DNA from: Escallonia rubra
Taxonomy: Eukaryota; Streptophyta; Magnoliopsida; Escalloniales; Escalloniaceae
Length of the DNA: 64,000 nucleotides
Assembly (NCBI GenBank): GCA_033065855.1
Contig: JAVXUO010000932.1
Coordinates: 1-64,000, forward strand
Direction of reading: 5' to 3'
Of this stretch, positions 1-62,941 are shown one piece after another. A program made the translations under genes and the position numbers. Positions within the stretch are counted from its first letter, which is position 1, and each line of letters opens with the position of its first letter. Below the pieces are notes generated by a model that was not told where the DNA came from, did not search any database, and worked only from the letters and a program-made list of their open reading frames with translations.

Positions 1-3000
1 AGCTATGGATTCCCATTCCAGACTACAAATCACATCCTGCAAATTGCACGACACGCTCACCGTCAAGGAAACGACAATAGAGCATGCGAGACCAGAAGTC
101 TCCAAAAGCCACCATAAATACCATTATTATGCACATACCGAGGGGTTTTGCTTATCGATGTCAAAGCTGTTAATGGCACAGGGTTCGGCCAAGAACTCAA
201 TAGCTTCTTCCCCTGGGAATTGAATGACATATTTAGAATCAGCCAACATGTAACTCAGAAGCACTACTCTTATTTGCATAAAACCCAAAAGCCTCAACAA
301 ATAGAAGAACAAATTCAGAAACAGCCCCTACCTTGCTCCACAACTGCAAGAATGCCATCTTCGGAGCATATCATAGCCGGTAAGACCCGCGTAGATGAGA
401 TGCTAGCAAGGTTTGCAGCACGTGTAAAAGTGTCATATTGGACCTCCCAAACCTCGCTTTCAGATAGCGACTGGGCTGGTGTCTCACCCATCCCAACCCC
501 AGAGAGAATTATCGGCTGTTGTTGCCACCGAAGGTCCCACGCAAATACAGAACCACTAGAACCCCCTGCCTTCATAAACAAGAAAACTAGAGAGCCAGCA
601 CAAAGTTTGAACAAGCTTGATATTTCAGATTGCATAAAACAAAAAATCAAACGACGCAAAAATGAAAAAAAAAAAAAAAAAGGAATTGATAATGAAACTT
701 CAGCTCTATTTCACTTCAGCAAAATCCTACTTTTTCCAGCAAGATCAGAAGGCACGTTTAAGTTGAAAATAGCTAGATGCAGAATTGTTTGGAGGAAGTA
801 CATGTTGGCCTTGTTTGCATACACCCCGAGTAAACATTTTGTGGCACTAAACCCTGCTCTGGTGGGTATGTTTGGCACATCACCTCCCTCCATCTTTCCT
901 CGTTATCTCGCTCACTCGCTCTATCTCACAAACATGTTAAAAGCCTGAGGTTCTATCAATAACATTGTTGGAGTTTGATGTCCTTCGTGAAATTGGATTT
1001 ACTACAAAAAACCATGTCATATACATGCACATGGAGACAAACATACACATGCAACAAATATAAGATATGTATCTATATGGTAGATGCGAAAGGGAGAGAT
1101 AGCCACCATCAACCTATTTGAACTGATCTTATCACCTGGGGCATGTTTAACGATGGGGTATTGACCTTGATCCAGTGGAGGAACAAGCTTCCAATTACTC
1201 GGGCACAACCTAAAACTGAGAATGCATAATAAAATGATGATTCCTGAAATGTTTACTAAAAACTTTGATGCTTTTAATTTTACATTTGATCTTGAAATTC
1301 AATTATAATAACCATTATTTGATACTCAAATGTCAAGGAATACATAAAAAGCCATACCTGAACACACACACACACAAACACTGTGTGTGTTGAAATTCAT
1401 GTCTGTAAAAAAGGCATTGGACTTCCAAAAATCAAAGGCATTGGATTTACTAAAAAATTAGGTACTTTTGGCTCTTTATCGATCTTAGAAGTTGATTATT
1501 AATGGTTCTGCGAGCGCCTTTGGACTTTAGAGAATGTTTGCCAAATACACCGAGTGTCTTTCGCTGCATGACTCCTGATTTCTTAGAACCGTTTGAAGGC
1601 TTACGTTTCTACTGTTTCTACCAGAAAAAGGGGATGTTCAAATGATATTACTTATCATAGTCATCATCCAAGCCTTTGTACGAAACTAGTTGGAGTCGGC
1701 TACATGAATCAGTTTATCACAATTCCCCTCCTAATAAACCAGGTGTTCACACAACTTCTTCCCAAGTTATTCGCGGTCTACCCCTACCTTGTCCAACACC
1801 ATCAACTTGGCCAAACCACTTCTATTTATAAGGGCATCTAAAGGCCTACGTGGAACATAGCAAAGAATGTCAACAAATGTTCCCTCATCTTTCCCTCAAT
1901 TTGTGTCACCCCCACTTGGCTGTGGATATCTAAATTTCTTGTTCTATCCCTCCTTGTGGCTGCACATCCACCTAAGCATTGGCATTTCAGCCGATCATCT
2001 TGTGTGTGTGATGTTTCTAAGTTACCCAACATACTGAACCATACAAAACTAGTGCTCTCACCGCCGTCTTATAAAAATTCACCTTCAGCTTAAAAGGCGA
2101 GTATGAAATCACATAAGACCCCGGTTGCAGACCTCCACTTTAACCCACCTGCTCTTACCTTAAAATCCTCGTCAATCTCTCCCTCCTTGTGCTTTATTGA
2201 ATCAAAAATACCTAAACAAATCTTTCTAGGTACTTGTTCACAAACCATACCTCCTCCAAAGACATCCTCCTTGTTTTACTAAAATTGCATTCCAAGTACC
2301 TCTTCTTAGTCCTGCTTAACCTATAACCTTTGGATCTAAAGTACTTCTCCATAACCGTGATTGTTAGCATTGTACGATCCGCGATATGTATCGTACTATG
2401 ACGGTACACCAATAAAACAGTAAAATATTGCTTGCATATTGGACCAATACTCGTGTCACCCCTTATATGGTTTTGCCGTTTACTCTATGGACCTGCATAA
2501 ACCCGAGAAACCTCCTAACCTCATCCAGGATTCCTCTATGACAATGAACAAACAAACAAACTCCTCTAGCAAGACACGAGAATGTGAATACTCTATCACA
2601 TCCTTCAATCACCATATAATTGTGAAAGAGGGAAGAGATGCTAACGACATTGAAAAAGAAAGGAGAAAGCTTTTACCAAGTTTCTACCGTCACGGCAGCA
2701 CCTATATTCTATTACTTGTAAGGGTGATCCAATTGAATGAACGGACCATATCCCCAAGGGATTGTATTATATTTTTATTTATTTTTATTCTTTAGTTTTT
2801 AATTTTTTTTTTAGTTTTAATTTATGCCTTGTTGAATGTGAATGAGCCCCGGCCATTTTTAGGTATTTGAATTTTGAACTACTTATATCAAATAATAGCG
2901 TTTGTTCTTGTGTTTGAATTTTGAAATACTGAGCATATAGATCGGAGCGTTATCAAGATGAGTAAAATCATTTGTAACATCCCTTTATTTTGGCAGAAAG

Positions 3001-6000
3001 TAGAAAACATGCCATGAACACAATTATAAGAAGTAGTAATACACCAAGAGGCATTTGATGCATTAAAATGTCCTGTAAAAGATGTTGCAGGTTGCCCCAT
3101 TTTCAAATTTGAGTTCATATGGGTTTGGTGAGCTAGAAATCAACCTTTGGTTCAAGCCACAACTTGGCAGGCGGAGGTCACGCCTGGCCAACAATGCTCA
3201 TCCCAAGACAGTAGGAAATCATATCACTTGGTCAAAATTGCTTAATTTATTAGTTAACACAGGTTTTCGCCAAAAGGATATGACATGTCATACAATGAAG
3301 CAAAAAGGTCAAAGACTTGATCAATTGAAATTGGACTCACTGACACAAATGTTATATGATGTTTCTTCTTAAAGGCATATAAACGATGAATTCGTAACTT
3401 AAATTAGGTAAACTTACATAAGCACGTCCTCAACTTTTTTAAATATAGACACCTTCCTCTTCAACACGACTTCACCCCTTAAATAAATCAATTTGGATGG
3501 AGAAAAAAAAGTACTACTCTTCCCCTTGTATATATAAATTATTCTTCAATCATCATCCAAGCAGTCCCGTCATATACATACATACAAAACATAGGTACAG
3601 AAAGGACCTTGCCACCACCACTAAAAACACCGAAGAAGGCTGCCGCCATCCACCTATATCATGCCTCACTGACCTATAGCCCTTGCACACTGCCATCAAA
3701 CTAATGTTCTTGCGATCATCTTCTTTAAAAATTAAACTCTATAGTATGGAGTACCTGTGTGCGTGTGTGTGTTTTTCTGTAAGGAATTAAAAATTTCAGG
3801 ACTGTGTTCAGAGCTCTTCTCCAATTGCTGTTAGGCATAAATGCCACACATTGTTGAAGTACACCGTCTTTCCTACTTTATCACAAGCAAAAGAGGATTT
3901 TTAATCAGCCATCTTACCAGACATGTGTGCTTTCGTGATGGATGAATATCAATGGAGTGCACAATGCCAGAAGTCTTCTGAGCCCTGCAACATTAACTGA
4001 GAATATGACCAAAAACAGTAAGAGAATAGGTTATCTGGGCCCAACTAATTAGGACAGCAGTATTGCAATTGTAATAGTCAAAATATGAAAAGTAACTATG
4101 TCTGCTCAAAGCATAAAAAGAACTATGAGAATGAAGAGCAACGACGTATGTCCAAAAGCATAGTAAATTTGTGATAAGCATAGTCCGCGGACAAACCAAT
4201 CAAAATCCCTAAGACATGAAACCCAGCCACATGGTATACTCAAACGCTAAGTAATTTGTTCGTCTAATGGCATGATGTTCATTTCACTCGCCACTGGGCA
4301 ATTCAAGGTGTGGGGATTCTGGCGAATTCACACTTCAATCAGTTTCGGCATGGTAGGAGGAATCTTAAGATACGAGACATGGAACTTTGTAATATACCAT
4401 TTCCCACCCCCTTTCATAGCTATCAGTGCACCATTTTCATATCACACTGTGTATCAAGGCAATGAAATCATAATAAGCAGTATTGACATCTGCCTTGTGT
4501 GTTTCAACGCTCGAAATGAATGGTAACGACATTGATGAGAGAATGACATTCCAAGAATGAGATGCCTATTAAGGCACCTTTATGTATTGGCTCTCTTCAT
4601 ATATACAGCATTACAGCCTAGCCTAGGAAGCACAGATTCCGGTGCGAGTGCGGATACGTCATTTTCTAAAACGTAGGATACGGGTGCTGCAGGGATACGG
4701 TAATTATATGTATTTTGTAAGCTATAGATGGGAAAAAAACTATCTTGTCTTTCCAACCAAATTAGCGTGGGAGTTTGTTGAATTAATGGGCTGTTTTGGA
4801 ATCATTAAAAATTGTATAGCTGACTTTAGTAAAAGTTTGTATGAGTTGTGGTGTTACTCTTATTTCCATGAAGTAATGGGGCTATTTTAGATATACTAAT
4901 CAAAATGGGGTACCTAAATAAAATACTAGAAAGTTGGGAAAAGATAAGGTTGCATGCATTTAAACAAGCGGTTATGGGTTAAAGAACAGCAGAAGTAACT
5001 TCAGCAGTTGTATATCTCCGAGTGATCCCTCTTCTTCTTGGATGCCGCTGCTACTGCCGGATCAACCTACGGACTCGCCCCCGACATCTCTTTCATGTCA
5101 TCCGTCTCCGGCTGCTGCTGCCTACTGTATCTGGTTCCTTCTTCTGTTTCTCTTTATTCTCTCTTCAACCCCCCTGCCCCCAAAACCACGATACCCTAGC
5201 TTCATTCTCTTTTGAAATTCTTCTTTGATCCTTGAAGTACCCGGTGCGTGTCCCAGCTGCACCCGAAATTTGGAAAATCATTTGAGATACTAAATAATAT
5301 TGGACACACACCAAGTGCACACCCAGCCACACCCAATCTGCACCCTGTGCTGGTACGTTGTCCAATATGCCGCACCCGTGCTTCACAGGATACAGCTAAA
5401 TGCTGGTTATAACTCAGGACCCCTTATGTAACCTGTCTTCACAAGTGGAGCCTAATTTTAAACCATCTAAAGCAATGAAGTTCACGTGAAAGAGCACCCA
5501 GTAAAGACAGTGTAATGAACAATTACAAGTCTACAACACCAAGAACTGCTTGCCCTTGTCTTCTGTTTGAAGTCCCAAAACAAGTACAAAGCACATACAT
5601 TTAACAAGGCAGTGCCCTCATTTATCAGTTCTACCTTATATTGCTTTGTGGATAGCTAAATATAGCAATATTGCTAGAAAAAGAAAAAACAGCGCGAGCC
5701 TAAAGGGGCGCAACAATGTACACGAAGATTACACAACTAACCAACCATATAAGACTTAAAGAACCTACACACTCCTGCTCTGACCACAATAACAAAGTAC
5801 TCAATACCAGGGAATTCAATTTAGCCAATTGAAGCTCTACCACCTGAAAGGCCCCTGGTGTTTGGTTCCCTCCACAGAGACCAAAATGGCACAGAGGTAT
5901 CACTTCCTATTAGTACGACTCGGAATTAACAATGCTCACTTTCTGTATAGATGCTTTTGTCTACAATAACGTCTTCAGTAATGACTCGAGTACTCAACCA

Positions 6001-8914
6001 ACTACTTTGCTCTTATTCCCTCCAGTTTGTTCCAAACCCAGTAAAAGTACAAGCTCTGTGAGCAATTTACCGGCTTAAGCAAGCGAGCACCCTCTTTGAT
6101 TGGTAACCACTAACCCCAACAAGGTTCCAGCCTAATCTCGTTATGCCTGTATTTCAGGCCCTTGGACAGACTATCTTCTTTTCCAAATAATTAGAGATGC
6201 TTCCGATTTATAGTTCTTTACTACCCAACCCTGCCCCCAATAGGAGGAGAGGGGCTGCACCCAACCATAGTCCATAATTTCTGTAGGTATTCATGAGATA
6301 ATAATCTTGCAATCATCTACACATTTGGCTTGAACATTAAGTGATATGAGTTCGACCAAGATTTGTTAGGATTTGAGCTAAAATAAAACTTAGAAAAACT
6401 TGGCGACAAGGAAAAACAGGAAATTGAAGACATTCCAATTGTTCGTGAGTTCAGTGACGTGTTCCCTGCTGAAATAAAAGCTCTACCCCCTGATCGAGAA
6501 TTTGATTTTGTTATGAAGTTATTGCCACGAACAAGTCCGCTTTCTAACGCTCCATATAAAGGAGCTCCAACAGAGCTGAAAGGGTTGAAGGTTCAGTTGC
6601 AAGAACTACTAGATAAAGGCCTTATTCAACCAAGTGTATCGCCTTGGGGTGCTCCCGTATTGTTCATTAAAAAGAAAGACGGTCCGTTCAGCTTGAGCAT
6701 TGATGATGGACAATTGAATCATGTGACTGTGAGGAACAAATATCCACTATCAAAGGTTTTGTTAGTCAAACTAAAGCCTTTTAGGTGAAGGAAGCTATGA
6801 GTTGGGCAAAACGATATATCTGTTGAGGTTGGGAGAAGCTTCGGGGATATAGGCATAGATTGGTGGGAATAAGTTGTTTAACACGATCTTAAATTCTAAG
6901 AAAATGCCGAGGAATGGAGATAAACAAAGTTGCAACTACTATAGAGGGATCAAGCTCATGAATCACGCTATGAAACTTTGGAGAGGGTTATTGAACATAG
7001 ACCAAGAAGAAAGAGTAAAATATCTAAAAAACAAATTGGTTTAGAAGCGATCTTTGCATGGTCTTTAAATATCTGGAAAAAGCATACAATAAGGTCCCAA
7101 GGGAAGTTATGTAGCGGGCTCTCGAGAACAAATTGAGTGCCTACCAAGTTTGTTGATGTTCTCACAAATGGAAAGACTCCAATCATACTCTCTATTCGCT
7201 TTGTACTTCAATTTTTCATAACATGTAGTAAGGATATGCACACCACCATATGTACTCTCTTACTTAACTCCTAGGTTTGCTAAAATTGCATGCCAAGTAC
7301 ACCGTCTTGGTCCTGCTTAACCTAAAAGCCTTTCAATGGGGAATATGCTTCTCGATAACTCTATCTTGAAGTTTAGATTAGCAAAAACGTATACCATCCG
7401 ATCTCATTATGAATATTCTCGGTAAGCTCGTCCTTGATCAAAGTAACTAAGCAAGGTACCTTTAAGCATCTTAAAAATCAGTAATGCACAGGGAGGGAGA
7501 GATTGATGAGGATGTGGACAATAGCATAATAAACGAGAAGAGCACGTTTAACAATTAAACAAAACAGCATCGAGCTGGCTAGAATTTGTTATCTCCATAT
7601 AACATAATAGCCGCATTCTCTTATCCTGATCCCAAACTTGAAAGGAATTTCCACCAGAAGTAAATAGATTCAATCATCTTAGGCTTAACAAATCCCTTAC
7701 TTGAGGATTCCGTAAATGGATGCACATTTTTTAAAATAAATGGATCATGGGCTCATGCTTCCCTTGAACATCAATTTTAACAATTTTTCGATGCTTTGCA
7801 TCAGCAATCTTTTGTTTTATAGGCGGGACACATGCAGCAGGGTAACAGTAAGAGATGAGGTTAGTGTCGCTCTGTGTTTACATCCGATTGGCATTGCTAA
7901 ATATTAAAAAAGCACTATCACAGAGTATCTGTTGTTGGGGGTGGCAAATTTTGCTTTCCAAGCAAAGCTACCTGCCATCCCCCCTGCTTTTCTCTCCTAG
8001 AATTACATTTATACACGCAAACTGATCACTGATTTGCCATTAATTTCGTCCAAAATAATGCTTCAAAAAGCATTGATCAATCATAAGAAGGCAGTCAAAT
8101 TAGAGTTAACAAAACAAAGTTTTGAAAGTATTAGCATTATTCCACTAAGCACTCTTAAGCATTAGCAAACACATGACTGCGAAATAACGCACAAAATGGA
8201 CATTTGACACCAATGCTCAAGCATGAAACAGTCGAAACAGTAACAGTTCAAGAAATAAAGACTGCTCACTAACCAATTCCCCTTAAACTGAGCTGCAGGC
8301 CCACCGCACTTCCTCTGATCCCACCACTGCACGCCAAGCCCCGGCCCGCCCGTGGCGAACTCCGCTGGTGACGCCCACTTTGTGGCAGTATACGAAGCCA
8401 GCCCGTTGCTGTCAAAAACTTTCCGATAACTCACCCCCGAACCGCCGACACTCACCACATTCACCCTCCCGTCCATCCCAACTGTAACACACTCCGACCC
8501 ACTTTCGTTCAAGTCAATCCCCGAGATGGGTCCCGCGTGCAACGCATTTTCGGGCAAAGAGACCTCCGAGTCTATCCTGGCATCGAGCGAATCAGCGAAC
8601 AGCACGTGGAACGAGCCAGAGAAGGAGGAGGCGGCGATCACGGGCTTTTGTGGGGTTTGAGAGACCTTGAGGGAGGAGATTCTATGAGGGGAGGTCCAGG
8701 AGAAGTGGTGGGTAAGGGTTTCTGACGGGTTTTTGGAGTTTATGGAGTGTATTTCGACGGAGGAGGCATCGGAATCGGAGTTAAAGGCGGCCAAGACGAC
8801 GTGGCGGTCAAATGGGGAGATAGGAGGCAGCCAGCGGAGGGCGTCGATGTATTTAGATTGGGGGAGTCTGTGGATTTGGAGGGGTTGGGGGTGCGGGGTG
8901 CCGTTTCGTGCCAT
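1..8914 (-). CDS. NUP43: Nucleoporin NUP43-like WD40 protein, five exons, 3' end outside the window
   Basis: NUP43 is a WD40 (beta-propeller) subunit of the outer-ring Nup107-160 complex of the nuclear pore. Coding exons read on the minus strand: 8914-8274 (ATG at 8914), 3984-3918, 569-332, 212-139 and 36 to the window edge. All introns are GT-AG and phases join exactly, giving 352 visible residues without a stop. Family blocks seen in order: [113 protein letters not shown] and [12 protein letters not shown]. These match remembered plant NUP43 sequence; only a short C-terminus should be missing. Introns 1 and 2 are about 4.3 and 3.3 kb and hold transposon remnants. The family call comes from recall, not a search, but the residue match and the consistent splicing make it strong. 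Confidence 0.9.
1838..2412 (-). mobile_element. RTE-type LINE fragment (C-terminal reverse transcriptase region) in NUP43 intron 2
   Basis: Minus-strand readings contain [20 protein letters not shown] (about 2270-2345) and, further 3', [20 protein letters not shown] (about 1880-1950). Both are signature stretches of the C-terminal part of plant RTE-class non-LTR reverse transcriptases. The pieces lie in different frames with stops between them, so this is a dead, 5'-truncated copy. It sits inside NUP43 intron 2 in the same orientation as the gene. No poly(A) tail or target-site duplication could be fixed. Confidence 0.7.
4627..5384. mobile_element. Possible short non-autonomous element with inverted ends, in NUP43 intron 1
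   Basis: The left end (4627-4652) carries GAAGCACAGATTCCGGTGCG and the right end (5370-5384) the reverse complement of GAAGCACGGGTGCGG, about 760 bp apart. The inside has no recognised coding domain; 5020-5230 is a CT-rich, UTR-like stretch. No clear target-site duplication was found, so the boundaries and class are uncertain. It could be coincidental similarity between GC-rich patches. Confidence 0.3.
6395..6785 (+). mobile_element. Ty3-gypsy reverse transcriptase fragment in NUP43 intron 1
   Basis: A plus-strand frame reads [15 protein letters not shown], then [32 protein letters not shown] and [17 protein letters not shown]. This is the start of the Ty3-gypsy reverse transcriptase domain (the [34 protein letters not shown] block). 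It ends abruptly near 6785, before the catalytic YVDD motif. Only a small part of pol remains. It is antisense to NUP43. Confidence 0.85.
6828..7385. mobile_element. RTE-type LINE fragments in opposite orientations, NUP43 intron 1
   Basis: On the plus strand, 6870-6990 reads [16 protein letters not shown] and [19 protein letters not shown], followed near 7070-7130 by [14 protein letters not shown]. These correspond to the NYRGIKL..TMKLWERVIE and DLEKAYDRVPREV blocks of plant RTE reverse transcriptases. At about 7275-7380 the opposite strand reads [19 protein letters not shown], the later [16 protein letters not shown] block. The two pieces face opposite ways, so the copy is rearranged or two fragments lie side by side. 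Several stops are present and neither piece is functional. Confidence 0.7.
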
Positions 8915-14800: not shown

Positions 14801-15204
14801 CATAAGTCTATGCAATCTCGACCGTCAAATTCTTAACCTAATTGAATACTATATATTTTTTTGTCATAAGTGGAATTTTTTTTTTTAGCAATTTGATCGT
14901 CTATATTACAATTGGAATTAAAATTCTTCTCTTGGACTTTGCAGACATAACAAAGGAAATAGAAGTTCTTTCTCTTTAGGCATCAAGAAGTGATTCTTAA
15001 TAGTTCTTGGTACGTGACTTGTTGCGCTTAAGATACTTTCAACTTGTATAAATGTAATTGTGTTGTTTATATGCCTTTTGCAATTTCTTTTCAGTTTTAC
15101 TCATATTCTTGTCTTATTTTTCTGAAATAGGGTGAGTGACGGTTCCCACTTTTCGTTCATGTTTGTAGACCTTTAAAGACTTCTCTTTTCCTACTTTATT
15201 TTTT
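11845..15204. other. Intergenic AT-rich region between GGP and the MULE
   Basis: No convincing gene is present. Short ORFs (13331-13519 plus, 13479-13742 minus, 14136-14324 plus) have no recognisable domain. A degenerate 27-base direct repeat (core CCGTTTGTTGTC or similar, followed by CATAG) occurs at about 14619-14645 and 14711-14738. A possible decayed copia LTR is listed separately. Confidence 0.55.
13644..14101 (+). repeat. Possible decayed Ty1-copia LTR
   Basis: The stretch starts TGTTGGAATAGTC, contains the copia-LTR-like words TTGTCCCACGTTGAAAAAG and ACAAAGCCTTC, later GGGCTTGAAATA, and may end with CCCAGCA. These resemble plant copia LTRs. No matching second LTR, primer-binding site or target-site duplication could be found, so this is a weak call and the right boundary is a guess. 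Confidence 0.3.
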
Positions 15205-15419
15205 GGGTTAATTACAAAACTGTCCCCTGTGGTTTACATGTTTTTGCACTTTGCCCCTCGTGTTTATAACTTTTGCAATAATGTCCCTCAAGGTTTACAA
15301 AACCATTGCAAACAGCTCCAAAAACGGACGACCGTTCAAATTCAGCCGTTAAGACCCCACGTGCACAGCACACCCAGTTTTCTCATGGGTATATCGGTCA
15401 TTTGCCTACCCCATCTTCC
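15205..15419 (+). repeat. Left terminal inverted repeat of the MULE
   Basis: About 215 bp matching the reverse complement of 20821-21033 with roughly ten differences. It contains a CACGTG palindrome at 15358-15363, present in both ends. MULE TIRs normally hold the transposase binding sites and act as promoters. Confidence 0.93.
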
Positions 15420-15939
15420 ATCGGTTATCACGAAATCAAATAACCCAACCGTTGCCAGAGCTAAGGAGAGAGAAATAGAGAAGAGCGGGAAAATAGAGAA
15501 CGGTTGTGCGATCACTACCTGCAAATCGAAATTCTTGGACGAAAAAGATCGCGTGTGGGAGATTGATGAGCGAAAATGGATTGGGTACTCCGAGAAAGTG
15601 ACGTCGCACAGCCCATTTACGGTCAGTGCTACTGAAACCCATATTTTGTCCCTGTTTGATTAAACTAGGGTTTGAGTTTTAAGTATATAATTAACTAATG
15701 TCTCTCACATGTGCAAATCATTTTATAATCCCTGTTCTAATTAAATAATTTTGTTTGTTGAAGTGTTGTTTGTTCGTGCGTGTTGTTTATTGATAGAATA
15801 ATGTTTTTAACTTTTATTAGTTTTTGTTTTATGCAGTAGTTAATTTGGGATTGTGCATGTTTGGTTTGTTTGTGTGTTTTCAGATCCTCATTCTTCTCTT
15901 TTAACCATAAAATTGCACTAAGGGGGGTAATTTAAGAAC

Positions 15940-18845
15940 ATGCCACACAAGGTTTACACCCCTTGCAAAATAGACTACTTTGATTATTGTGACCTTGTAA
16001 TGTTAAGTTTGATTGAGATTGATAACATGGCAGAGAGTGGAAGAGCTGTAGGATTTATGAACTATTACTATAAGAAGCCTGGGTTAAGCCTTGACAATGG
16101 ACTAGTGCAGATGATTGTAGACTCAGACATTTTGGCATTGAAAGACTGCATAAATTCACAGGGCCAAGTAGAAATATATTTGGAAAGTTTGTCAAAGGAT
16201 GAGATGATGGAATCAATTTCCACTCAGTTAGGGCTTAAAGAAACTGTGGGCTCTAGTGTGGTTATTGAAGAGCTTGATGATGTAGGCAATGTAGGAGGAA
16301 ATGTGCCTACAGGGACTACTGTGCCTGTTTGGAGCTTAGAAGTACACAGGGGGTGAGAGGTGGTTCAAGGTTTAGGCTAAGTCTAGAAGGTCCAAGCAAT
16401 GCTGGTGATGATGGGCTTGGTACACAAGCATCAGTAAATGTGGGCACTGGGGTGGAGGAAAACATAAACCAGAGCAGTAGGGCAACAATGGGTACTCAGG
16501 GGGAGGAAAACATAAATCAGAGCAGTAGGGCAAGAATGGGCACTGAGGGCAAGAGAACCATACACCAAAGGACTAGGGCAGCAAGGGGCAGTGCTAATGA
16601 GGGGTCAATGGGCAGTGCTACTAAGGGACCAAGGGGTAGTGCTACTGGTGCTAATGAGGGGCCAAGTGGTGGTGCTTCTGAGGGGCCAAGGGGTAGTGCT
16701 ACTGGTGCTAATGAGGGGCCAAGTGGTGGTGCTTCTGAGGGGCTAAGAGGTAGTGCTACTGGTGCTAATGAAGGGCCATGTGGTGGTACTTCTGAGGGGC
16801 CAAGGGGTAGTGATTCTGACACTGATTCCGATGATGAATCATACTGCTCAGATTTGTTTGATAGTGACTATGATGCCAATGAGGATGATAGATTGTATGA
16901 GAAGAATGTTGACATGAATGTAGTAGAACATGGAGTGGGTAGTAGAAGCAAGGGTAAAGGACAAATGGTGCCAAATTTTGAAGAGAAAGAATATGACTCT
17001 GATGAGTGGCAGGAACATCCACCATCAGATTCTGAGGGAGAAATTGACAATGCAAGAAACAATAAACTAACTGGGGAATTTAACCCTAAATCAGCCATGA
17101 GAAAACCTGAGTTCAAGGTTAGTATGGTGTTTAAAGACAACAAGGTTTTCAAGGAAGCTGTTAGGCAACATTCTATTTTGGAAGGAAAACCAGTAGTATT
17201 CCCCAAGAATGAATCAGGGAGAGTTAGATCTAGGTGTGCTTCAGAAGGGTGTCAATGACAGGTGTTTGTGTCTAGGATGCAAGGAGACAATGAGGTTGAT
17301 TTGGTTGTGAAGACTGCGGTAACCCAGCACACCTGTACCAGGGTGCACAAGAATAAACATGTGACTAGTACTTGGCTAGCTGTTAGATATAATAAAGATT
17401 TCAGATTAAATCCTAATATGAAGGTTGGTACTTTGAGAAATACATTGATGAGTGATCACCAACTAGATGTGCCACTTTGGACAGTTTATAGAAGCAAGAG
17501 GAAGGCAACAATGATGGTTGAGGGCAATATAATGGAACAGTTTGGGCAGTTGAACTCTTACATTGATGAACTTAAGAGAAGTACTCTTGGCACCACTGTG
17601 GATCTACAATATGAACCAGGGGGCATAGGACAGAGTGAGTATAGGTTTCAAAGGATTTATATATGCCTTGGTGCATTGAAGGAAGGGTTCAAAGCTGGGT
17701 GTAGGAGATTGATAGGGCTAGATGGGTGCTTTTTGAAAGGTCCCACTGGTGGTCAGCTCTTGACTGCAGTGGGCATTGATCCTAACAACCAGATGTATCC
17801 AGTGGCATATGCTATTGTAGAGGCTGAAAACAGAAACTATTGAGGTTGGTTTGTACAGTTGTTAGGTGATGACTTAGTGATAAAAGACAATTTGAGCTGG
17901 ACATTTTTGTCTGACAAACAAAAAGGGTTGGTTGGGAGCATAGAGTCATTGTATCCTCATACTGAGCACATGTTTTGTGTCATGCATTTGCATGCAAACA
18001 TCAAGGCAGCATGGTTTACTGGGATTGCTTTGAGAGATGCTCTATTTGCTGCAGCCAAGGCAACCAATGTGGTGAGATGGGAGCATAGAATGCAAGAGAT
18101 AGCTGACATAGACAAGGAGGCAGTGGCCTGACTTGATGATAAGCCACCTACAAAGTGGTCTAGGTCACATTTTAGTACAAATGTTAAATGTGATGTTCTT
18201 TTGAACAATTATTGTGAGAGCTTCAATTCAATGATAAAGGAAGCAAGGGATAGATTGGTCATTACTTGTCTTGAAACCATAAGAAATACCTTGATGGTAA
18301 GGATGAGATTTTCTAGGGAACAAGCTAAGGAATGTAATGGTGAGATTTGTCTTGCAATACAGAGGATAACTGAAAGATTGAAGGTGTATGTTGGGGAAGG
18401 GATACCATCACACTCAGGGGAGTTGAGGTTTCAGGTAGCATGTCCATGGGGGGAGCAGTTCACTGTGGATCTCAAGCAGTACACATGTTCATGTAGGAGG
18501 TGGGACTTGAATGGGATTCCCTGTCCCCATGCCATTGCATGCATTTGGCAGAAGAACCTGGTAGTAGAGAATTTCATCCATGAGTGCTACAGTATTGACA
18601 CATACAAGAAGGCTTATGCAGCAATCATTAACTCAATGAATGGTCCAAGTATGTGGCCTAAAAATAATTTACCCTTCATTCTACCCCCCACTTATAGAAG
18701 GCCAAGTGGCAGACCTAAGAAACTGAGGAGAAGAGGCAAATATGAAACTGAGGATAACACAGGCACTGACAAGATGCCAAGGAAAGGAACAACAACTAGA
18801 TGCAGCATATGCAATCAGCTTGGGCACAATAGGAGGAAATGTTAG
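15940..18845 (+). pseudogene. MuDR-type MULE transposase, inactivated by three TGA codons and a frameshift
   Basis: The N-terminal part (15940-16356) has the plant MULE N-terminal domain pattern VDYFDYCD...VGFMNYYYKKPG. It continues in another frame from about 16329, implying a one-base indel near the G-run at 16347-16352 or an unrecognised intron. The transposase body follows: RLIGLDGCFLKG (first catalytic Asp at 17721), FLSDKQKGL (second Asp at 17913), HMFCVMHLHANIK, NNYCESFNSMI, a SWIM zinc finger CSCRRWDLNGIPCPHA, and a zinc knuckle CSICNQLGHNRRKC. In-frame TGA codons lie at 17256-17258, 17841-17843 and 18129-18131. Each falls where related transposases carry Trp, so each is one G-to-A change. 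Further C-terminal exons may lie at about 18950-19050 and 19122-19494, with another in-frame stop at 19355-19357. Confidence 0.88.
16635..16805 (+). repeat. 57-bp tandem repeat, three copies, inside the MULE transposase ORF
   Basis: Copies start at 16635, 16692 and 16749, with the beginning of a fourth at 16806. The 57-base unit encodes a 19-residue Gly/Ser/Ala/Glu-rich stretch beginning GSATGANEGPSGG. Being a multiple of three it keeps the frame. It lies between the N-terminal domain and the transposase body and is followed by an acidic DSDTDSDDESY stretch, as in a flexible linker. Confidence 0.9.
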
Positions 18846-19991
18846 AGCAGCAGACAAAATACTTCCTCAGTAAGTACATGTTGATTTTATTTAGTTGGCC
18901 TAGTTGTTATTTATGTTTGAGATTAATGCATTATAACCTCTCTAACAGGGAAACATGCCAACTGAGCAAGGCAGAGCCCCACAACAGGGAGATATGGCAA
19001 CAAGGGGGGAGGGGGGGCAGAACCCCAAGAAGCCAAAAGTTACCAGTATGTAAATAACAGAGTTATATATTTGAATTGTATTTATAATTAGGTGTTTTTA
19101 CTGAAAATGTCTTTTTGCAGCCAAGAAGGCAACAAACTGCATCTCAACCAAGCCAAGGTGCTCCACAAAGCTCAGTTGTTACAGAGCAGATACAAGCAGG
19201 GTTTATGCCAACTCCACAGGCAACATCAGCCCAAAGACCATCATGGCCTATACCAAGCATGGTAGAGCCACCACCAACATCAGCTGTTGCAGGTGGCCAA
19301 AGCCAAGGTGGCCAGAGTAGAGGGATAGAGAAAACTGCCAAGGGAAGTCCAAGCTAAGGGAAGGAGAAGTCAAAAGATAACCCTGGCCCAAATCCAACAG
19401 GAGGACAAATAACCACAAGATCAAGAGCAGCTGCAAGGAGTCAAGGTGAAGGACAAGCAGCTGCTGGTCTAAAGGGCAAGGGAAAGCAAAAGTGATATGG
19501 TGTCAGTGTAGCTTAATTTTGTGTAGGGAACTCACTGTTAGTTTTTGTTCAAAGTATAGGAAGGTTGGATGGTTTTTGGAGAGCAGTAGATAAATTTGTA
19601 GGTGGCTGGTTTTTGGAAGCCTAGTATATACACTAGAAGATAGTGTCAGAGTACATGTTTTTGGATGTTGGTTGTAATTAGAATTGGGAAGGATGATATT
19701 GTTTATGTGTTGGATGTAATTTAATTGGAAGATTGATGACAAAACCACAGCTTGTGAGTCTGTATGTTCAGATTAATGTAACTTGATTACTTGTCTTGAG
19801 ATTCGCTTGTGAATCTTACATGAAAGGGATATTTTAAAACTTGTGATGATGCAAATGTGATGAATTTGCAAGTGAGATGATGCAATTTCATTGTGCTATA
19901 TTACAATTGGAATATAGTATAATGCAGTGTTTAAGGACATGTCCATTTGAGTAGTTTAGGTACATGTTTGTCAACATGCAACAATGTCAAG

Positions 19992-20090
19992 GGGACACTT
20001 TTGTCCTGAAAAAGTAAACCAGATGGGACACTTTTGTCCTGAAAAAGTAAACCACATGGGACATTTTTGTCTATTATTGTAAATGACAGG
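19992..20090 (+). repeat. 33-bp direct repeats in the MULE 3' subterminal region
   Basis: The words GGGACACTTTTGTCCTGAAA and GTAAACCA recur with a 33-base period at 19992, 20025 and, more diverged, 20058. Related GGGACATTTTTG words follow to about 20130. They resemble the opening words of the TIR (CAAAACTGTCCCC), so they may be extra copies of a TIR motif. Confidence 0.75.
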
Positions 20091-20820
20091 GAACAGAATT
20101 ACAATACACATGGGACATTTTTGCTCGGTATGTGAAAAGTACGGGAGATACTTTTGCCATTAACATTAAAAGTACAGGGAACAGAAATGCAAAAACATTA
20201 AATTAAAATTATCTTCATTACATTGCTTCAGTACACAGCTTGGAAACATGGGATGTTGATTTTTTTAAGGCAATCCCTAATTCAGTACATTCCACAGCTC
20301 AAAACATTACAAAAAGCCCTAATTCAATACAACCCTAGCAATTTCTACAAGCTGTTGCCCACGTCTTCACCTTCAATGTTGCTCAATTCCTCTGTCCCTT
20401 CGCAATCACAGTCAGTAGAAGCAACACCCAACTAATAATTGCAACAGTCTTCCAAAATCTCTTATTTGACCTGTTAATCGTAATTGGAGGGTCACGCCAA
20501 GCAAAAAACCCACACCTACCAGCCTGTGAGAACAAGGAGATTGTTCATTTAGCTCACGAAATTGAAGAAGAAAATGGGTTAAACACAAAACTCACCTGTT
20601 GCTGCAAGTCCAAAATCTTCGGCCGGGATTTAGATCTGTCCACGAAGTCTTAGCCACGGCTCTCTGACCACACTGACAGTATATATGAGCCATGAGATGG
20701 GTTCTTCGAAATCTCTCTCTCCTCCACTGAAGTCTCTCTCTCCTTTCTTAAAACCCCTGAAGAAATACTGAGGCATAAACTGATTTTGGAGGGAAATAGG
20801 AGTGACAATCACTTTTGGAG

Positions 20821-21033
20821 GGAAGATGGTGTAGGCAAATGACCGATATACCCATAAGAAATCGGGTGTGCTGTGCACGTGGGGTCTTAACGGCTGAATT
20901 TGAACGGCCGTCCGTTTTTGGAGCGTTTGCAATGGTTTTGTAAACCTTGAGGGACATTATTGCAAAAATTGTAAACACGAGGGGCAAAGTGCAAAAACAT
21001 ATAAACCACAGGGGACAGTTTTGTAATTAACCC
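20821..21033 (-). repeat. Right terminal inverted repeat of the MULE
   Basis: About 213 bp, reverse complement of the left TIR. It is directly followed by the second copy of the 9-base duplication TTATTTTTT. Confidence 0.93.
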
Positions 21034-21042
21034 TTATTTTTT

Positions 21043-22467: not shown

Positions 22468-23470
22468 AGTGTATTATTAACGCATTCTCTGCTTGAGTAG
22501 TGTTCTGCATCTTTTCTGCTTCTCTTACCTGGTTCTCTCGAGTTGTAATGAGTGTCGATCAATTGCATGCTCACAAAATCTCATACTACTTTCGAGTTAC
22601 CTGCGAAAAGCTCTGAGGTTTGAACTTTGACTGAGATCATTTAATATTGTTGGAAGTGTCAATGTCACAAATCTCCCCGTCTGTTGCAAATGATTAGAAG
22701 GCGAACGTCCAAGAAGAATCTGAAAGTCCCTTTCGGCCTGTAAATTGTCCAGCTCTACTGTCTTTTCCATCTTCTCCAATTTATTTCGTGCAGCCTCTCT
22801 CTCTCTCTCTCTGCCAGTTTGCCGCTGTGCCTTCAATTCTGCTTCTTCCCAGTCTTGTTGCAACTTCTGCTGCTCTGATTTCTGCACGTAGTCTCCTGCT
22901 GCATTTGTACGGGATGAGACTGCGTGTCAACCGTCGACACCTGTTTCCCCTTCAAGATTATGGGTCCGAAGCTATTCATCAGATTTGCAACACGTTGGGC
23001 CTTCGGAGCAGAACTTTCTTTCGTAGGAACACCAGTAGTTGAGGGTTCAGGTCCACGACGCATTGTTCTCCACCCAGACGACCTGCAGCCCCATCCGCTT
23101 CAGAATCTGATTTGCACAGGCCGGATGGCCTGATTTCAGGTTTGTGTTCTCCGTTTGCAAGACTATTGATGGAGGATATAGGGGCACAACCATCATATCT
23201 ATTGCTGCGTTGGCTTGTCACCTTACAACTTCAACGACCTTGGAAGGCTAACTTTAGTCTTAACTTCGTTTGGGTAGAGCCACGAGCAGTTGCGTCTTCA
23301 TCCACATTAGCGGCATTCGAAATCTGATCGAAAAACTCACTCAACTTCCTTGCCATCAGATGAACAGCATTAGACTCAGGATTGTAGGTCATGGCATTGA
23401 ATAATGTCAACCTGACATCTGCTTCAAACTCCTCACGGTTCGTGTAGATACCGTCTTCCAACTTGGCCTT

Positions 23471-26400
23471 TGTTCCCAACCTAACTTGGTTGAACCCAAG
23501 GGCCACTAGGGTTCCCGTTTTGCGCGACACATCATATATTCAACTGTCAACTTTTCAACGCTCCCAAGACGGTCAAAAAATCATGCCGAAGTCACGTGCA
23601 TTTTCTCCTTCGGTACAACCTTGGTGTGCCTTCCTCCTTGGGGGTCGGCCACCTTCCCCTTAGGGGTGGGGGGGGGGGGGTCGGCCACCTTCTTCCCTTG
23701 GGGGTCGGTGTGCCTCCTATCTCTCATGCAACGCATGCTCTTCCTTGGCCTCGCGCCGACTCCGCGATGCCCACCGTCGCCCGTGCGCCGGCTTCACGGT
23801 GCTCGTCGTCGTCGCCCGCGCACTGGCTTCACTGCGCCAGTGATCGCGCACAGTCTCTGCAATGCCCGCCGTCGCCCACGCATCGACTTCACGGCGCCAG
23901 TCGCCCGTGGTCGCGGGCCATCTTCTCGACCCCCGCCGTCGCCCGCGCACCAACTTCACAGCGCATGTCGCCGTGGCCCGCGAGCCGGCTTCACGGCACC
24001 AGTCGCCTACTGTCGCGCGTCGTCTCTGCGACGCCCGCCGTTGCCCGCACACCGGCTTCACGCCACCCGTCACCCATGATTATGCGCAGTCGCCGCGACG
24101 CCCGCTGTTGCCTACGCGTTGACTTCCCAGAGCTCGTCGCCCGCGGCTGTGCAACACCTGTCACCTGCAAGCCGACTCCACGGCGCCCGTCGCCCGCGAT
24201 CGCGCGCCATCTTCGCGACACCCATCGCCCTCACCCGTAAGTCATCTCCAACACTCTGCCGCACCCCTGATACAGTCGCGCCCCCGACTCTATGTCATAC
24301 TACCACGCTCCTTGCACTGGTCCATCCTATCACGACACAATGCGCGCCTTGCCTTGGTTGTGGAACATGGTTCGACCCACTCTCCGGAGTGTGTAGCATC
24401 CCGCAGGGATAGACGACTCCTCTGGGACACTGTCTCTGCCAGGAAGCTTTTCAACTCTCCTTCCGCCAGGTAGACGGCTCCTCTGGGATACTACCTTGAC
24501 GCACTCTAAGTGCTCCTATACAAGGACTCACCCGCAAGGATAGACGACTCCTTCAGGGCACTTTCTCCGCTTGGGAGTTCTAAGTGCTCTGGTACGAAGA
24601 CTCCCTTTCTGCCAAGTAGACGGCTCCTCCGGGATGCTACCTCAGCCCGCGGAATAGGCGACTCCTCCGGGACAATATCTCCGCCAGGGTGTCTGCCTGA
24701 CTGGCCTACGTGTTCCGGCACCGGGGGCTTCATCAGCACCCCTAGGGACTATGACCCCCGGGTCACTCTGAGACGGGAGCAGTTCTCCAGAGGGCATCGC
24801 GCCTAGTCCGCCTGGCAGTTAGGCGTCGGGTTTTCCCCACCGCTGCCAGGCCTGTGGGACTCTGGAAGGGCTTGGATTGGTGGCTAGATCAAGAGGGTTC
24901 TCTGGCCACGCCGACGCTATGGGAGCCAGTCTTTCCAGACAGACAGAGCGAGACTGTGAGGAGCAGACCGGGTGAATATGCGATCTAACAGTCTGAGGAG
25001 AACCAGTATATTTGGACCCCCTGGTGATGCGTCACTCCCAGGGGATGACACATGCACACTTTTCCCTATAAATAGAGGACTTTGAAACTCATTTTGGATA
25101 GAACTCTTTCATTTGACAATTTTACTTTTTCAATCTAGAATCCAAATTCTCTAGAATTCTAGAGAGAGAAACATACAAGACTTTGACTCTGGACCTAAGC
25201 ATCGTACTGTGATTGTTGTCGTATATTCGCCCTGCGTCGTCACCGTCACAGCACTGCCATCCTCAGGCTCTGTCTGGGAAGCCCTTGGTCTCTGCCCTTG
25301 CTCCACCTTTGTTGTGTCCTACATCAGTACACTTGGCATATGACTCGGACTGTATTCCTAGTGGCCCCGCCACGTCGACTGCGAATCCACTTCCTTGGCA
25401 TCATTTTTCGAACCCAAGAAGGGGAGTTGAAAAGCTCTTTGGTAGAGATTGTGTCCCGGAGGAGTCGTCTTTCCCCGCGGGTGAGTCCTTGTGCCGAAGC
25501 ACTCGGAACGCATCAAGGTAGCATCTCGGAGGAGCCGTATACCTGACGGGCCGAGGTAGTATCCCAGAGGAGCCGTCTACCTGGCAGAAGGGGAGTTGAA
25601 AAGGTCCCTGGCAAAAATAGTGTCTCAGAGGAGTCGCCTATCCCTGCGGGATGCTGCACACTTTGGAGAGTGGGTCGAAGCATGTTCCGTGACCAAGGCA
25701 AGATGTGCATGGTGTGGTGATAGGATGGACCAGCGCAAGGAGCGTGGTAGTGTGACATAGAGCTGCGGGCGTGACTGTATCAGTGGCAGGGCGGAGTGTT
25801 GGAGACAACAGGCGGACGCGGAGGACGTGTGTCATGGAGGTGGCGTACGGTCACGGGCGACGGGCGCCTTAGAGTCGACGCGCGGGCAACGGGCGCCAGG
25901 CGGCCGCAGGTGCCGAGCTTCGGGAAGTCGACGAGTAGGGGACAGCGGGCGTTGTGGCGCTACCACGGGTGACGGGCGCCGTGAAGTCGGCCTACGGGCG
26001 ACGACGGGTGTCGAGTGGGCGGCACGCGACCACGGGCGATGGGTACTGTGAAGCTGGCGCGTGGACGACAACGGGCGTCACGAAGAAGGAACGCGACTAG
26101 GGGTGACGGGCACCGTGAAGCCGATGTGCGGGTGACAGCGATGGGCGCCGTGAAGCCAGCGCATGTGACGGCAGGTGTTGCAGAGTCGTTGCGAGGCCAA
26201 GGAAGAGCATGCGCTGCATGAGAGGTAGGAGGCACGCTGACCCCCTCTGGGGGAACGGGGCCGACCGCCAAGGGAGGAAGGTGGCCGACCCCCTTATGGG
26301 GAAGGTGGCCAACCCCGCTTAAGGGGAAGGTGGCCGACCCCCAATTGGGAAGGCGTGCCAAGGTTGTTTCGAAGGACAAAATGCACGTGACTTGGGCATG

Positions 26401-26512
26401 GTTGTTTGACCAGCTTGAGAGCGTTGAAAAGTTGACAGTTGAATATGTGACGTGTCGGCCAAAATGGGACCCCTGGTGGGCCCTTGGGTGCAACCATGGT
26501 AGGCTGTGAACA
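23471..26512. mobile_element. 3.04-kb palindromic TG...CA element with a 5-bp target-site duplication inside the bromodomain exon
   Basis: The element begins TGTTCCCAACC and ends ...GGCTGTGAACA. It is flanked by GCCTT on both sides (23466-23470 and 26513-26517). Removing it with one GCCTT rejoins the bromodomain frame exactly. The two halves are inverted copies: the first 190 bp inward match at about 80%, and similarity continues in patches to about 24560 and back from about 25440. The arms contain GC-rich tandem repeats (23760-24240 and 25830-26200) and a recurring motif of the type GACGRCTCCTCYGGGA. The centre (24560-25440) is unique and has TATAAATA at 25067-25074. TG/CA ends, a 5-bp duplication and a central TATA box fit a solo LTR; the long inverted arms fit a foldback transposon. 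ORFs inside are Arg/Pro-rich by composition and not credible genes. Confidence 0.85.
25067..25074 (+). promoter_or_regulatory. TATA box in the centre of the palindromic element
   Basis: TATAAATA occurs in the non-palindromic centre, followed by an AT-rich, CT-containing stretch typical of the start of an LTR R region. This supports the LTR reading of the element and a transcription start near 25100 on the plus strand. Confidence 0.5.
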
Positions 26513-26650
26513 GCCTTTACGGTTCCCAAATCCATAGCCTACTGACTACCGAAAAGTAATTCGGAATGCCTAGTTTTATAGGATCAACTGGGTTGTTGAA
26601 TACCCACCCAGTTGGATGAGCCCTTAACCTTTCGAAGATGCCACTCTAAC

Positions 26651-27694: not shown

Positions 27695-28526
27695 CTTCTG
27701 TAAAAATCTGTCGCTAAAGGTTTTCATTTGGTAAAAACCTTTAGCGACGGATTTTTACCGACCTTATTTCTCGACGGAAAGTCCGTCGCTGATTAGAATT
27801 TCTAGATTCTTCCTTATTCTCTAGCTTTTTCTTTGATGTTTTTTTGAACGACCTTTAGCGACGGACTCATTCGGTCGGTAAAGTCTAACTTTTCAAAGTT
27901 TTTATACCCTTTAGCAACTGACTTTTAGCGGCGGTCAAAATCCGTCACTAAGGGTCATTAAAACCAAAAAACTTGGCTAGGTTTGACAAAAAAATTTTCC
28001 TCTTTTTTTTTTCAGTTTTTAAAAACTGAAAAAAAAGGAGCGTTTGGTAACCATTTTTTTTTTCAGTTTAAAAACCAGTTTTTAAACTGAAGAGTAAAAA
28101 AAAAAAACTCCAGAAACTGGTTTTTTTTTTCACTTTCAAATTTTTTTTCTTAGACCACCACCACCACCCTCCCACCGCCGGCAGCCACCTCAGGCGACCA
28201 CCGCCGGCCGCCGGCGACCACCGCCGGAGACTGCCGGCAGCCACCTCCGGCCGCCGGCGACTGCCGGCAGCCACCTCCGGCCGCCGGCCACCACCGCCGG
28301 CGACTGCCGGCAGCCACCTCCGGCCGCCGGCACCACCACCGGCGACTGCCGGCAGCCACCTCCGGCCGCCGGCCACCACCACCACCGGCCACCACCGCTG
28401 CACCCCACCACCACCACCGCAAACCATCGGTAAAGTCTAACTTTTCAAAGTTTTTATACCCTTTAGCAACTGACTTTTAGCAGCAGTCAAAATCCGTCAC
28501 TAAAGGTCATTAAAACCAAAAAACTT
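27695..28526. repeat. CACTA-like subterminal repeats with a GC-rich insert between two 100-bp direct repeats
   Basis: Words of the type TTTAGCGACGGA and their complements recur at 27705-27960, the same motif as in the CACTA end at 32662. A 100-bp stretch (27875-27974) is repeated almost identically at 28427-28526, with a few substitutions. Between the copies are 452 bases: a poly-T/A region with short palindromes (27975-28150), then a GC-rich tandem array (28160-28420). No CACTA terminus is present at either side, so this is a fragment. Confidence 0.75.
28160..28420. repeat. GC-rich tandem array (CTGCCGGCAGCCACCTCCGG type)
   Basis: The unit CTGCCGGCAGCCACCTCCGG, followed by CCGCCGG, occurs about five times with variable CACCACCGCC spacers. 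Minus-strand ORFs here encode Gly/Arg/Trp-rich low-complexity strings and are judged artefacts. The composition differs sharply from the AT-rich surroundings. Confidence 0.85.
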
Positions 28527-52199: not shown

Positions 52200-52618
52200 T
52201 GTTGTATGTGGAGCCTGATTTCAATCCAGAGACGTTGTTACAATGAGGTAGTGACCCGAAAGCATGTTTTTGTGAGGTTGTCCCACATTGCTTAAGGAAA
52301 GAAGGTCACAGCTTAGCCCAAGTATATAAGTGTTTTGTCCCACATTGGTTATTTAGAGAAAGATCACATCTTAGCTCTAAATAAATATACATGGTCTTGT
52401 ATTGTTTTGGGTCAAGAGAGAAAACCACAACATAAAGTGGGGGTTAAGATTTTGGTTGTAACGCTGCTGAATAGTGAAATCGAAATCTGGTCATACTCCG
52501 GGGACGTAGCCATATTGGTGAACCTCGTAATTCTTGTGTTGTGCGTTTGGTTTATTTTAAATTTCTCGTTTCTTTTTTTCTTCAATATATTGCTTCGTAG
52601 TCGCTGCGTTTCGTAACA
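52200..52618 (+). repeat. 5' LTR of the copia element
   Basis: 419 bp, TG...CA. TATATAAG at 52323-52330 is the likely TATA box. Two related stretches, each with GTCCCACATTG and a following RATCACATCTTAGCY- or RGTCACAGCTTAGCC-type word, lie about 58 bases apart (from about 52278 and 52336). Confidence 0.97.
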
Positions 52619-52620
52619 AC

Positions 52621-52632
52621 TGGTACCAGAGC
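52621..52632 (+). other. Primer-binding site of the copia element
   Basis: TGGTACCAGAGC begins two bases after the 5' LTR. It matches the usual plant copia site complementary to initiator tRNA-Met (TGGTATCAGAGC) except for one base. Confidence 0.85.
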
Positions 52633-52679
52633 TTGGGTTCGAGTCTTACTCACATAGGTTCTACGTTTGAGTGAGACCA

Positions 52680-55600
52680 ATGGCCGAAGAAGGTAAAGGA
52701 AAGATCGAGAAGTTTAATGGTATGAATTTCCAGTGGTGGAAGATGCAAGTTGAAGACTACTTGTATCAGAAGGATCTGTATCTACCGCTGGTGGGAGAGA
52801 AACCTGAAGCGATGAATGCGAGTGAGTGGGCGATTTTGGACAGAAAGGCGCTGGCTACAGTAAGACTTAGCCTAACCCCACAAGTAGCATTCAATATCTC
52901 CAAGGAAAAAACTACTGCTGCTGTGATGAAAGCATTGGAGAAATTGTATGAAAAACCTTCTGCTTCGAATAAGGTATTTCTCATGAAGAAACTGTTTAAT
53001 ATGAGAATGTCTGAAAATGGTTCTGTTGTTGATCATTTAAATGATTTTAACGGTGTTACAAATCAATTGGAATCTGTTGGCATTAATTTTGATGATGAAA
53101 TTAGGGCTTTGTTGTTTCTGTGTTCACTGCCTGATAGTTGGAATAACTTGGTGACGACAGTGAGTAATTCTACTATCTCTGGAACGCTAACACTTAATGA
53201 TGTTGTGAGTTCTGTGATGAATGATGAAATGCGGAGAAAGACAATTGGTGATGGTATATCATCTAGTACTGCTTTGTCCGTGGAATCCAGAGGTAGACAT
53301 AATAACAAGCAGAATAACAGGGGAAGAAGTCCTACAAGAGGAAGATCAAAATCAAGAGGCAAGTCGAAGTCCAAAGGGAGAACCATAGTATGCTGGAATT
53401 GTAATAAGGAGGGTCATAAGAAGAATGATTGTACAGAACCAAAGAAGAAAAAGGGAGCAGGGGGAAGACAAGGTGATGATGAAGGGGCAAACATGGTAAG
53501 TTCAAACGAACGGACATATGACGATTTATGTCTTTCTGCTACAATGGATGATAATTCCAAAGTGTGGTATGTGGACTCAGGAGCCTCGATTCATTGTACA
53601 CCTCATAGGGATTGTTTCAGTGATTATGTTCATGGTGATTATGGACATGTGACTGTCGGGAATGGATATCGGTGCAGCATTGTTGGAAAGGGAAAAGTCA
53701 AAATTAAACTGTCAAATGGAGGAACCCTAATTTTGAATGATGTTAGACATATTCCAGAACTGCAGAAGAACCTTATATCCGTCAGCGGGTTGGATCGTGA
53801 AGGCTATTTTGTGGCATTTGGTGAAAAACAGTGGAAGGTGACCAAAGGGTCGATGGTGGTAGCAAGAGGAGAAAGAGTAGGAACCCTATATACTCTTTCA
53901 GGTACCCATAACCACTCTATCTCTTTGGCTTTTACAGAAAATCAGAGAACCACATTATGGCATCACAGGTTGGGACATTTGAGTGAGAGTGGTATGAAAA
54001 TTCTGCACTCAAAGAATGCATTGCCAGGGATGAAGAACATTCAGTTGGATTTCTGTGAGGGTTGTGTCTATGGAAAGCAAAAGCGGGTCAGTTTTCGGAA
54101 GGATGGTAAAGAGAGGAAGACTGAAAGACTGGAGTTAGTTCATACGGATGTTTGCGGACCTACTACAGTAAAGTCTCTTGGAGGTAATTTCTACTTTGTT
54201 TCTTTTATAGATGATGCTAGTAGAAAGACCTGGATATATGCCATCAAACAGAAATCTGATGTTTATCACACTTTTAAGAAGTGGAAAGCTCTTGTTGAGA
54301 ATGAAACAGGGAACAAAGTAAAATGCATAAAATCTGACAATGGGGGTGAGTATCGTGATGGAGGGTTCCAAGAATATTGTTCCAATAATGGTATCAGGTT
54401 AATAAGAACTGTTAAGAGGACACCTCAAGAAAATGGCTTGGCAGAGAGGATGAATCGAACCATCATGGAACGAGCAAGGTGTATGAGAATACATGCTGAT
54501 TTACCTCTACAGTTCTGGGCAGCAGCTGTGGATACTGCCGTATATTTAATTAACAGAAGTCCAGCCAGTGCTCTCAATGGTGGTATTCCTGAAGAAGAAT
54601 GGTCAGGTAAACCAGTAAATTATTCTTTTCTGAGAGTTTTTGGATGTATTGCTTATGCTCATATTGATAAAGAGGAGAGGAAGAAACTTGACTCTAAATC
54701 TCAGAAGTGTGTATTTATTGGATATGGAGGTGATGAATATGGTTATCGTTTGTGGGACTACGAACATAACAAAATCATCAGGAGTAGGGATGTCATATTC
54801 GATGAATCACGGTTGTATAAGCATAGGTTACAAGAACATGGAATTGAAAGAGAAGACAAGGAATACATGGAACTTGATGAGCCAGAAGATGGACGGATAC
54901 CCAAGATAGAAAGTCCAAAAGTTCTTGATGAGACAACTGATACTGAAATTGGAGCTGGTGATCAACAACAAGTGCCTGAAACTCTTAACCTCAGAAGAAG
55001 TAGTCGGGTAAGGAAAGCTCCTGACAGACTTTGTCTTCCCCTCGATTATATTTTGTATACTGATTCTGGTGAGCCAGAATGTTATCAAGAAGCGATACAA
55101 GATAAATCCAGGTTACAGTGGGAGCAAGCCATGAAAGATGAGATGGCTTCACTTGAGCAAAACCAAACTTGGGATTTGGTAAAGCTCCCTACAGGTAAAA
55201 ATGTTCTGTACAATAAATGGGTATACAGGATTAAAAATGAAGCTGGAGGAACAAAGAGATACAAGGCAAGACTAGTTGTGAAAGGGTATCGGCAGAGGAA
55301 AGGTATTGATTTCCAAGAAATCTTCTCTCCTGTTGTGAAGATGACTTCAATTCGTACGATATTGAGCATTGTAGCTATAGAAGACTTACATCTGGAGCAG
55401 CTGGATGTTAAGACAACATTTCTCCATGGGGATTTGGAGGAAGAAATCTACATGCATCAGCCAGAGGGGTTTGAAGTCAAGGGTAAGGAGGGAATGTTTT
55501 GCAGGTTGAAGAGGAGCTTGTATGGCCTAAAGCAAGCTCCTAGACAGTGGTATTTGAAGTTTGACAGTTTCATGAAGCAGACAAACTTCACTAGATGCGA

Positions 55601-62900: not shown

Positions 62901-62941
62901 TTTGACGTGATTGGGTTTGGTCAATCGGCTAGGCTGGCGGG

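Follow-up and report, generated by a model that had tools for sequence, protein, structure and literature searches.

A 3,042-bp palindrome in a bromodomain sequence of Escallonia rubra consists of two LTR pieces of one retrotransposon family in opposite orientation

What kind of element carries the ends of an LTR retrotransposon and yet is a palindrome over most of its length? The question is raised by a locus in Escallonia rubra (assembly GCA_033065855.1), for which the first 64,000 nucleotides of contig JAVXUO010000932.1 (forward strand; hereafter the window) were analyzed. The element occupies positions 23471-26512 (3042 bp), starting with TGTTC at 23471 and ending with GAACA at 26512 (both exact), and is flanked by exact copies of a GCCTT target-site duplication (23466-23470 and 26513-26517). 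The original prediction had taken the TG...CA ends and the duplication as marks of LTR-type integration, and both were found as described. We also confirmed that removal of the element together with one GCCTT restores the empty site, rejoining MDLGTVK (26515-26535, minus strand) in frame to AKLEDGIYTN, which opens a bromodomain fragment downstream of the insertion (23264-23470, minus strand; PF00439, E 4.7e-7). The claim that a bromodomain exon had been split stood for the bromodomain sequence but not for an intact exon. Just upstream of MDLGTVK the bromodomain frame is shifted and contains a stop, and the split bromodomain is therefore probably a pseudogene.

The two arms, about 1.1-1.2 kb each, are inverted copies of one another, as had been proposed for a length of more than 1 kb. 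Overall, 831 of 1007 aligned letters are identical (82.5%), with a local score of 677 in the inverted orientation compared to 23 in the direct orientation and to no more than 34 for any of 200 dinucleotide shuffles, and BLAST pairs 23471-24496 with 26512-25554 in inverted orientation. The similarity thus runs well beyond the outer 200 bp. Within the outer 190 bp the inverted likeness is real, at a measured identity of 85% and not the roughly 80% first given. By self-alignment, the left arm covers 23471-24689 (plus strand). The box expected at the center of an LTR was located as well: TATAAATA, the presumed LTR promoter, lies at 25067-25074 (plus strand) near the middle of the element, in which TATAAA occurs once, on the plus strand. 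Judging from this box, the U3/R border is presumed to lie at a putative start site some 30 bp downstream of TATAAATA. A protein search with the open reading frame of the arm (3402 candidates) gave nothing at E 0.01, and neither Rfam at gathering scores, nor IMG/VR pattern scans, nor a literature search with motifs of the element returned anything informative for it.

One of the two explanations first offered was a foldback transposon, that is, a palindromic family in which the 3042-bp unit itself transposes with its inverted arms. The TG..CA ends, the 5-bp duplication and the strong inverted repeat all agree with it, and so does the RNA fold of the whole unit (-2023 kcal/mol compared to a mean of -1246 kcal/mol for five shuffles), in which the right arm is the pairing partner of 882 of the 1219 bases of the left arm. 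For the center of the element taken by itself, the fold is barely more stable than those of shuffles (z -1.74; one of 20 shuffles as good). However, the differences between the arms are not biased towards wobble pairs: 62 keep G-U pairing in the sense RNA and 59 break it (p value 0.86), so there is no sign that RNA pairing has been kept, and selected pairing between the arms was excluded on this basis. The differences do include many transitions at CpG (52 of 127 dinucleotides, compared to 65 transitions in 753 non-CpG sites), an excess as expected of methylated repeats.

Copies elsewhere in the genome also speak against the foldback reading, which we consider very improbable. The genome (566,129,122 bases in 3222 contigs) was searched with the best 40 candidates scored each time, and the element query (best 40 of 7911 candidates) gave 30 loci, one of which is the window itself. 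In 28 of the 29 other loci, similarity to the element ends at query positions 1931-1946, and in the last one (L024) at 1910; the right arm beyond the LTR end is absent from all 29. Copies with boundaries other than those of the element, a possibility that the original prediction had raised against itself, therefore do occur: their end corresponds to 25403, exactly or nearly so, instead of 26512. The end they have in common is CTTGGCATCA, with few variants. Similarly, when the junction was used as a query, 37 of the 39 other scored places (best of 4467 candidates) stopped at 25403-25408. Of the other two, the match in C2065 (L045) apparently extends to 25419, although what follows the LTR there is unlike the right arm, and that in C2249 apparently extends to 25430, judging from match coordinates. 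No copy of the whole palindrome was present in the 29 loci or in 38 of the 39 junction candidates (C2249 left aside; best 40 scored), and the claim of a foldback transposon was abandoned.

The part that these loci share belongs to an abundant LTR retrotransposon. A 19-base LTR-start pattern has 2398 exact matches genome-wide, while the reversed control has none. All 22 LTRs for which both ends were located are ordinary: 14 are solo LTRs, three are followed by a primer binding site (PBS) and five are preceded by a polypurine tract (PPT); in the remaining seven of the 29 loci, our probes missed at least one of the two ends. The survey of target-site duplications proposed at the outset, here made on a sample, showed equal 5-bp flanks for the 14 solo LTRs, of which the one at L011 lies in a TA repeat and is hence uninformative. 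The three LTRs mentioned above continue into TTTTGGCGACTCCGCTGG.., a PBS resembling TTTTGGCGACTCCGCTGGGGA being found after 5' LTRs, while AGGGGGCTTA or a variant precedes the 3' LTRs; the labels PBS and PPT are presumed from position. The proposed search for paired copies around an internal region succeeded within the sample as well. Direct LTR pairs carry identical 5-bp duplications in C541, C1840 and C2716 and duplications agreeing at four of five positions in C2488 and C1324, and the internal region measures about 3.6-4.5 kb where both borders were located (C1324, C2488, C2716). A gag domain (PF03732) was detected in C1840, C2488 and C2716 and below the cut-off in C1387, but not in the tested pieces of C541 and C1324. 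The family is an LTR retrotransposon because LTR pairs surround an internal region, with gag in several of them. No pol domain was detected in 35 ORF pieces, which cover part of the internal frames and in some cases lie outside the internal regions; the other matches in these pieces were SWIM in neighboring DNA (L032) and a sub-threshold TPR (L038). The sampled copies look non-autonomous, and autonomous members may exist among the unsampled ones. In five loci (L012, L026, L027, L029 and L030), the U3 harbors tandem repeats of a unit of roughly 169 bp, whose varying copy number probably contributes to the range of LTR lengths (1.5-2.45 kb).

The window contains further repeats. A Copia retrotransposon at 52200-57117 is a recent insertion: its LTRs are 99.3% identical, it has a GTATA duplication, and gag, integrase and reverse transcriptase are all matched in a 1316-aa frame. 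At 58994-63366, LTRs of about 405 bp (97.8% identical) are bounded by a CCCTC duplication; Pfam gave no match for the single internal frame examined (60893-61279), and this element is possibly non-autonomous. A Mutator-like element at 15205-21033 has 218-bp terminal inverted repeats 95% identical and ORFs (16281-18845) that match MuDR, SWIM and, below cut-off, MULE; its 9-bp duplication TTATTTTTT (15196-15204 and 21034-21042) is AT-rich and hence weak. Finally, a GC-rich tandem array with a 43-bp unit lies at 28155-28380. Besides these repeats, the window contains a kinase ORF that shares 99% identity with a protein of Escallonia herrerae.

Comparison with the family resolves the palindrome into two LTRs. 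The first, LTR A (23471-25403, plus strand, 1933 bp), is complete from TGTTCCCAAC to CTTGGCATCA, is the only part of the element common to the 29 other loci and includes the left arm within its U3; at its 3' end, as many as 37 of 40 positions agree with U5 ends of the family. LTR A is followed by TTTT (25404-25407, plus strand), the same bases with which the internal region (TTTTGGCGACTCC..) opens in 5' LTR copies of the family, and then by a 10-bp filler, TCGAACCCAA (25408-25417). Together with the next G the filler resembles family LTR starts (TCGCACCCAAG), although an exact match was absent from the other loci compared, and a templated origin is only suggested. The rest, LTR B (25418-26512, minus strand), corresponds in reverse complement to the initial 1.1 kb of an LTR, so that it is truncated at its 3' end and the 5' end of its U3 forms the right end of the element. 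Of the outer 40 bases on the right, as many as 37 agree with U3 ends of the family (mean 30.0 for 24 ends, selected by a motif in their first 13 letters) but 14 at most with its U5 ends (25 ends), and in places LTR B reaches 88-89% identity with the U3 arms of other copies. The palindrome is thus two LTR pieces of one family and not one LTR. Because LTR A is complete and LTR B is 3'-truncated and inverted, both outer ends are U3 ends within a single duplication. The second explanation first offered, a solo LTR that had evolved an internal inverted repeat, does not hold: a solo LTR has one U3 and one U5 outer end, whereas here the right outer end is U3, the LTR ends at 25403 and the right part is a second, inverted LTR.

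The two LTRs could have come from one parent or from two. An inverted duplication of the element's own U3, for example through its own RNA by a hairpin or a template switch, with later divergence of the arms, would be in line with their identity over 1007 aligned letters. It would also suit a search with 853 bases of the right arm, in which the element's own left arm was the second-best match by score (427 bits, 68%; best 40 of 3081 candidates). The best match in that search was, however, C1006 (458 bits, 71%), which outscored the left arm, and closer relatives than the partner arm were found elsewhere for shorter segments. In a 190-bp outer segment (four rows), the element's own arms are 85.3% identical to each other, while L002 is 86.4% identical to the left and 88.5% to the right arm; in a 210-bp segment, the corresponding values are 87.1% for the own arms, 89.3% for the left arm and L007, and 88.6% for the right arm and L041. 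The own arms were grouped in 4% of 200 bootstrap trees (22 rows, 211 columns), a rough figure from an unsettled bootstrap. Since such short-segment trees are weak and the left arm ranks second over 853 bases, the kinship of the two halves may be closer than these trees imply. On balance, an origin from two members of the family seems likelier than self-copying, and we regard duplication of the element's own U3 as improbable.

The same structure could have arisen by two independent insertions in opposite orientation, the second reusing the GCCTT target of the first, followed by a deletion from the start of the internal region of A to the middle of the LTR of B; either LTR could have been the first. 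The abundance of the family, with its 2398 exact LTR-start matches, favors such encounters, opposite-orientation neighbors are present (C26, C61, C127, C135), and deletions and truncated LTRs are common in plants. However, an exact reuse of the 5-bp target is required, and a crude genome expectation amounts to 0.005-0.06 such pairs for 2398-8000 insertions, which is small, yet not negligible for an oddity picked by eye. In addition, the outer flanks did not match in any of four contigs (chosen by eye among the first 100 of the 2398 starts) in which U3 ends face outward at a distance of up to about 20 kb. Several of these ends adjoined a PPT and were ordinary 3' LTRs. We judge two insertions with a later deletion to be unlikely, though less so than a duplication of the element's own U3. 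The least probable of all explanations is an assembly artefact joining two separate loci. The assembly is a draft built from nanopore reads (PMC10759652), and repeats of this LTR family are abundant; a random misjoin would nevertheless not explain why GCCTT is present on both sides and why the bromodomain sequence continues across the empty site.

We therefore favor, with a probability of roughly 0.58, a chimeric insertion derived from two LTRs of one gag-bearing LTR-retrotransposon family, the two U3 ends of which were integrated in one event. A single event is indicated because there is one exact duplication and because the reading frame is restored across the empty site; integrase would then have inserted the two U3 ends in a concerted manner. 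These ends may have belonged to two co-packaged cDNAs, whose other ends would have been trimmed and joined by host end-joining, leaving the filler. Alternatively, a single chimeric cDNA carrying a U3 end on either side may have been produced by an inverted template switch between two family members. End-joining, a step that we infer, would suit the filler and the shortened LTR B, but these features do not separate the joining of two cDNAs from template switching. The full sequence of steps, in which a plant integrase paired the U3 ends of two cDNA molecules and the far ends were trimmed and joined by the host to give a palindrome within one duplication, is accordingly put forward as a tentative proposal. 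The palindrome itself would simply result from the opposite orientation of two U3 regions, with no shown function.

The mechanism rests on one case because a second U3-U3 composite was not found in the loci and contigs examined. At L007 (C1750:1421464-1423323), two family LTRs lie in opposite orientation with their U5 ends outward and shortened U3 parts between them; this locus was considered as a second composite and rejected, as its outer flanks differ and one end lacks the last base. In the literature on palindromic or inverted-repeat LTRs, complex LTRs, and solo LTRs and foldback elements, no U3-U3 composite appeared in titles and the opening lines of abstracts, so that earlier descriptions may exist. 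The terms ‘inverted’ and ‘palindrom’ gave no match in PMC4029996, and in passages of PMC2253517 and PMC6547461 ‘palindromic LTR’ refers to nothing more than the TG..CA motif.

If the element did arise in one integration event, it shows that joint insertion of two like ends (U3 and U3) is possible in a living plant, and such events could be counted by a simple signature, namely truncated LTRs in inverted orientation within a single target duplication. If two cDNAs were involved, counts of U3-U3 scars, and of reciprocal U5-U5 scars, in plant genomes could serve to record the co-packaging of cDNAs. For annotation, the locus is a warning that TG..CA palindromes with 5-bp duplications can be fused LTRs and not foldback elements.

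Among known systems, the element can be compared to the complex LTR insertions attributed to template switching in cereals (Sabot and Schulman 2007; PMC1950507), in which a single 5-bp duplication was taken as one integration event. As in those complexes, two members of the same family are fused inside one 5-bp duplication, here GCCTT on both sides of a multi-LTR structure with the empty site in frame. However, the cereal complexes have a direct orientation, three LTRs and normal outer ends, whereas the halves of this element are inverted and 82.5% identical in place of near-identical direct outer LTRs, the outer ends are both of U3 type and no more than four bases remain of the internal region. 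By this analogy, the element may be seen as a variant of complex LTR insertions, the new feature being two like ends inside one duplication. It resembles a solo LTR in that LTR A is complete and adjoins GCCTT on its left; in a solo LTR, however, the U5 end CTTGGCATCA adjoins the other copy of the duplication, while the right end here is the start of a second, inverted LTR. The family itself presumably comes closest to the gag-only non-autonomous plant LTR elements (LARD / TR-GAG type), with gag PF03732 downstream of the LTR and PBS and no pol in the 35 ORF pieces, and its PBS may resemble that of Ty3 Tat/Ogre elements. Foldback transposons have similarly long modular inverted arms with internal tandem units, but they make duplications of about 9 bp, whereas the arms of this element are LTR U3 regions, its duplication is 5 bp and no second palindrome was seen. 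Retroviral integrases can perform concerted integration of two separate donor ends in vitro. The reaction proposed here would be similar in joining two same-type ends from two molecules to one target, and would differ in being a natural product, of inferred origin, in a plant genome.
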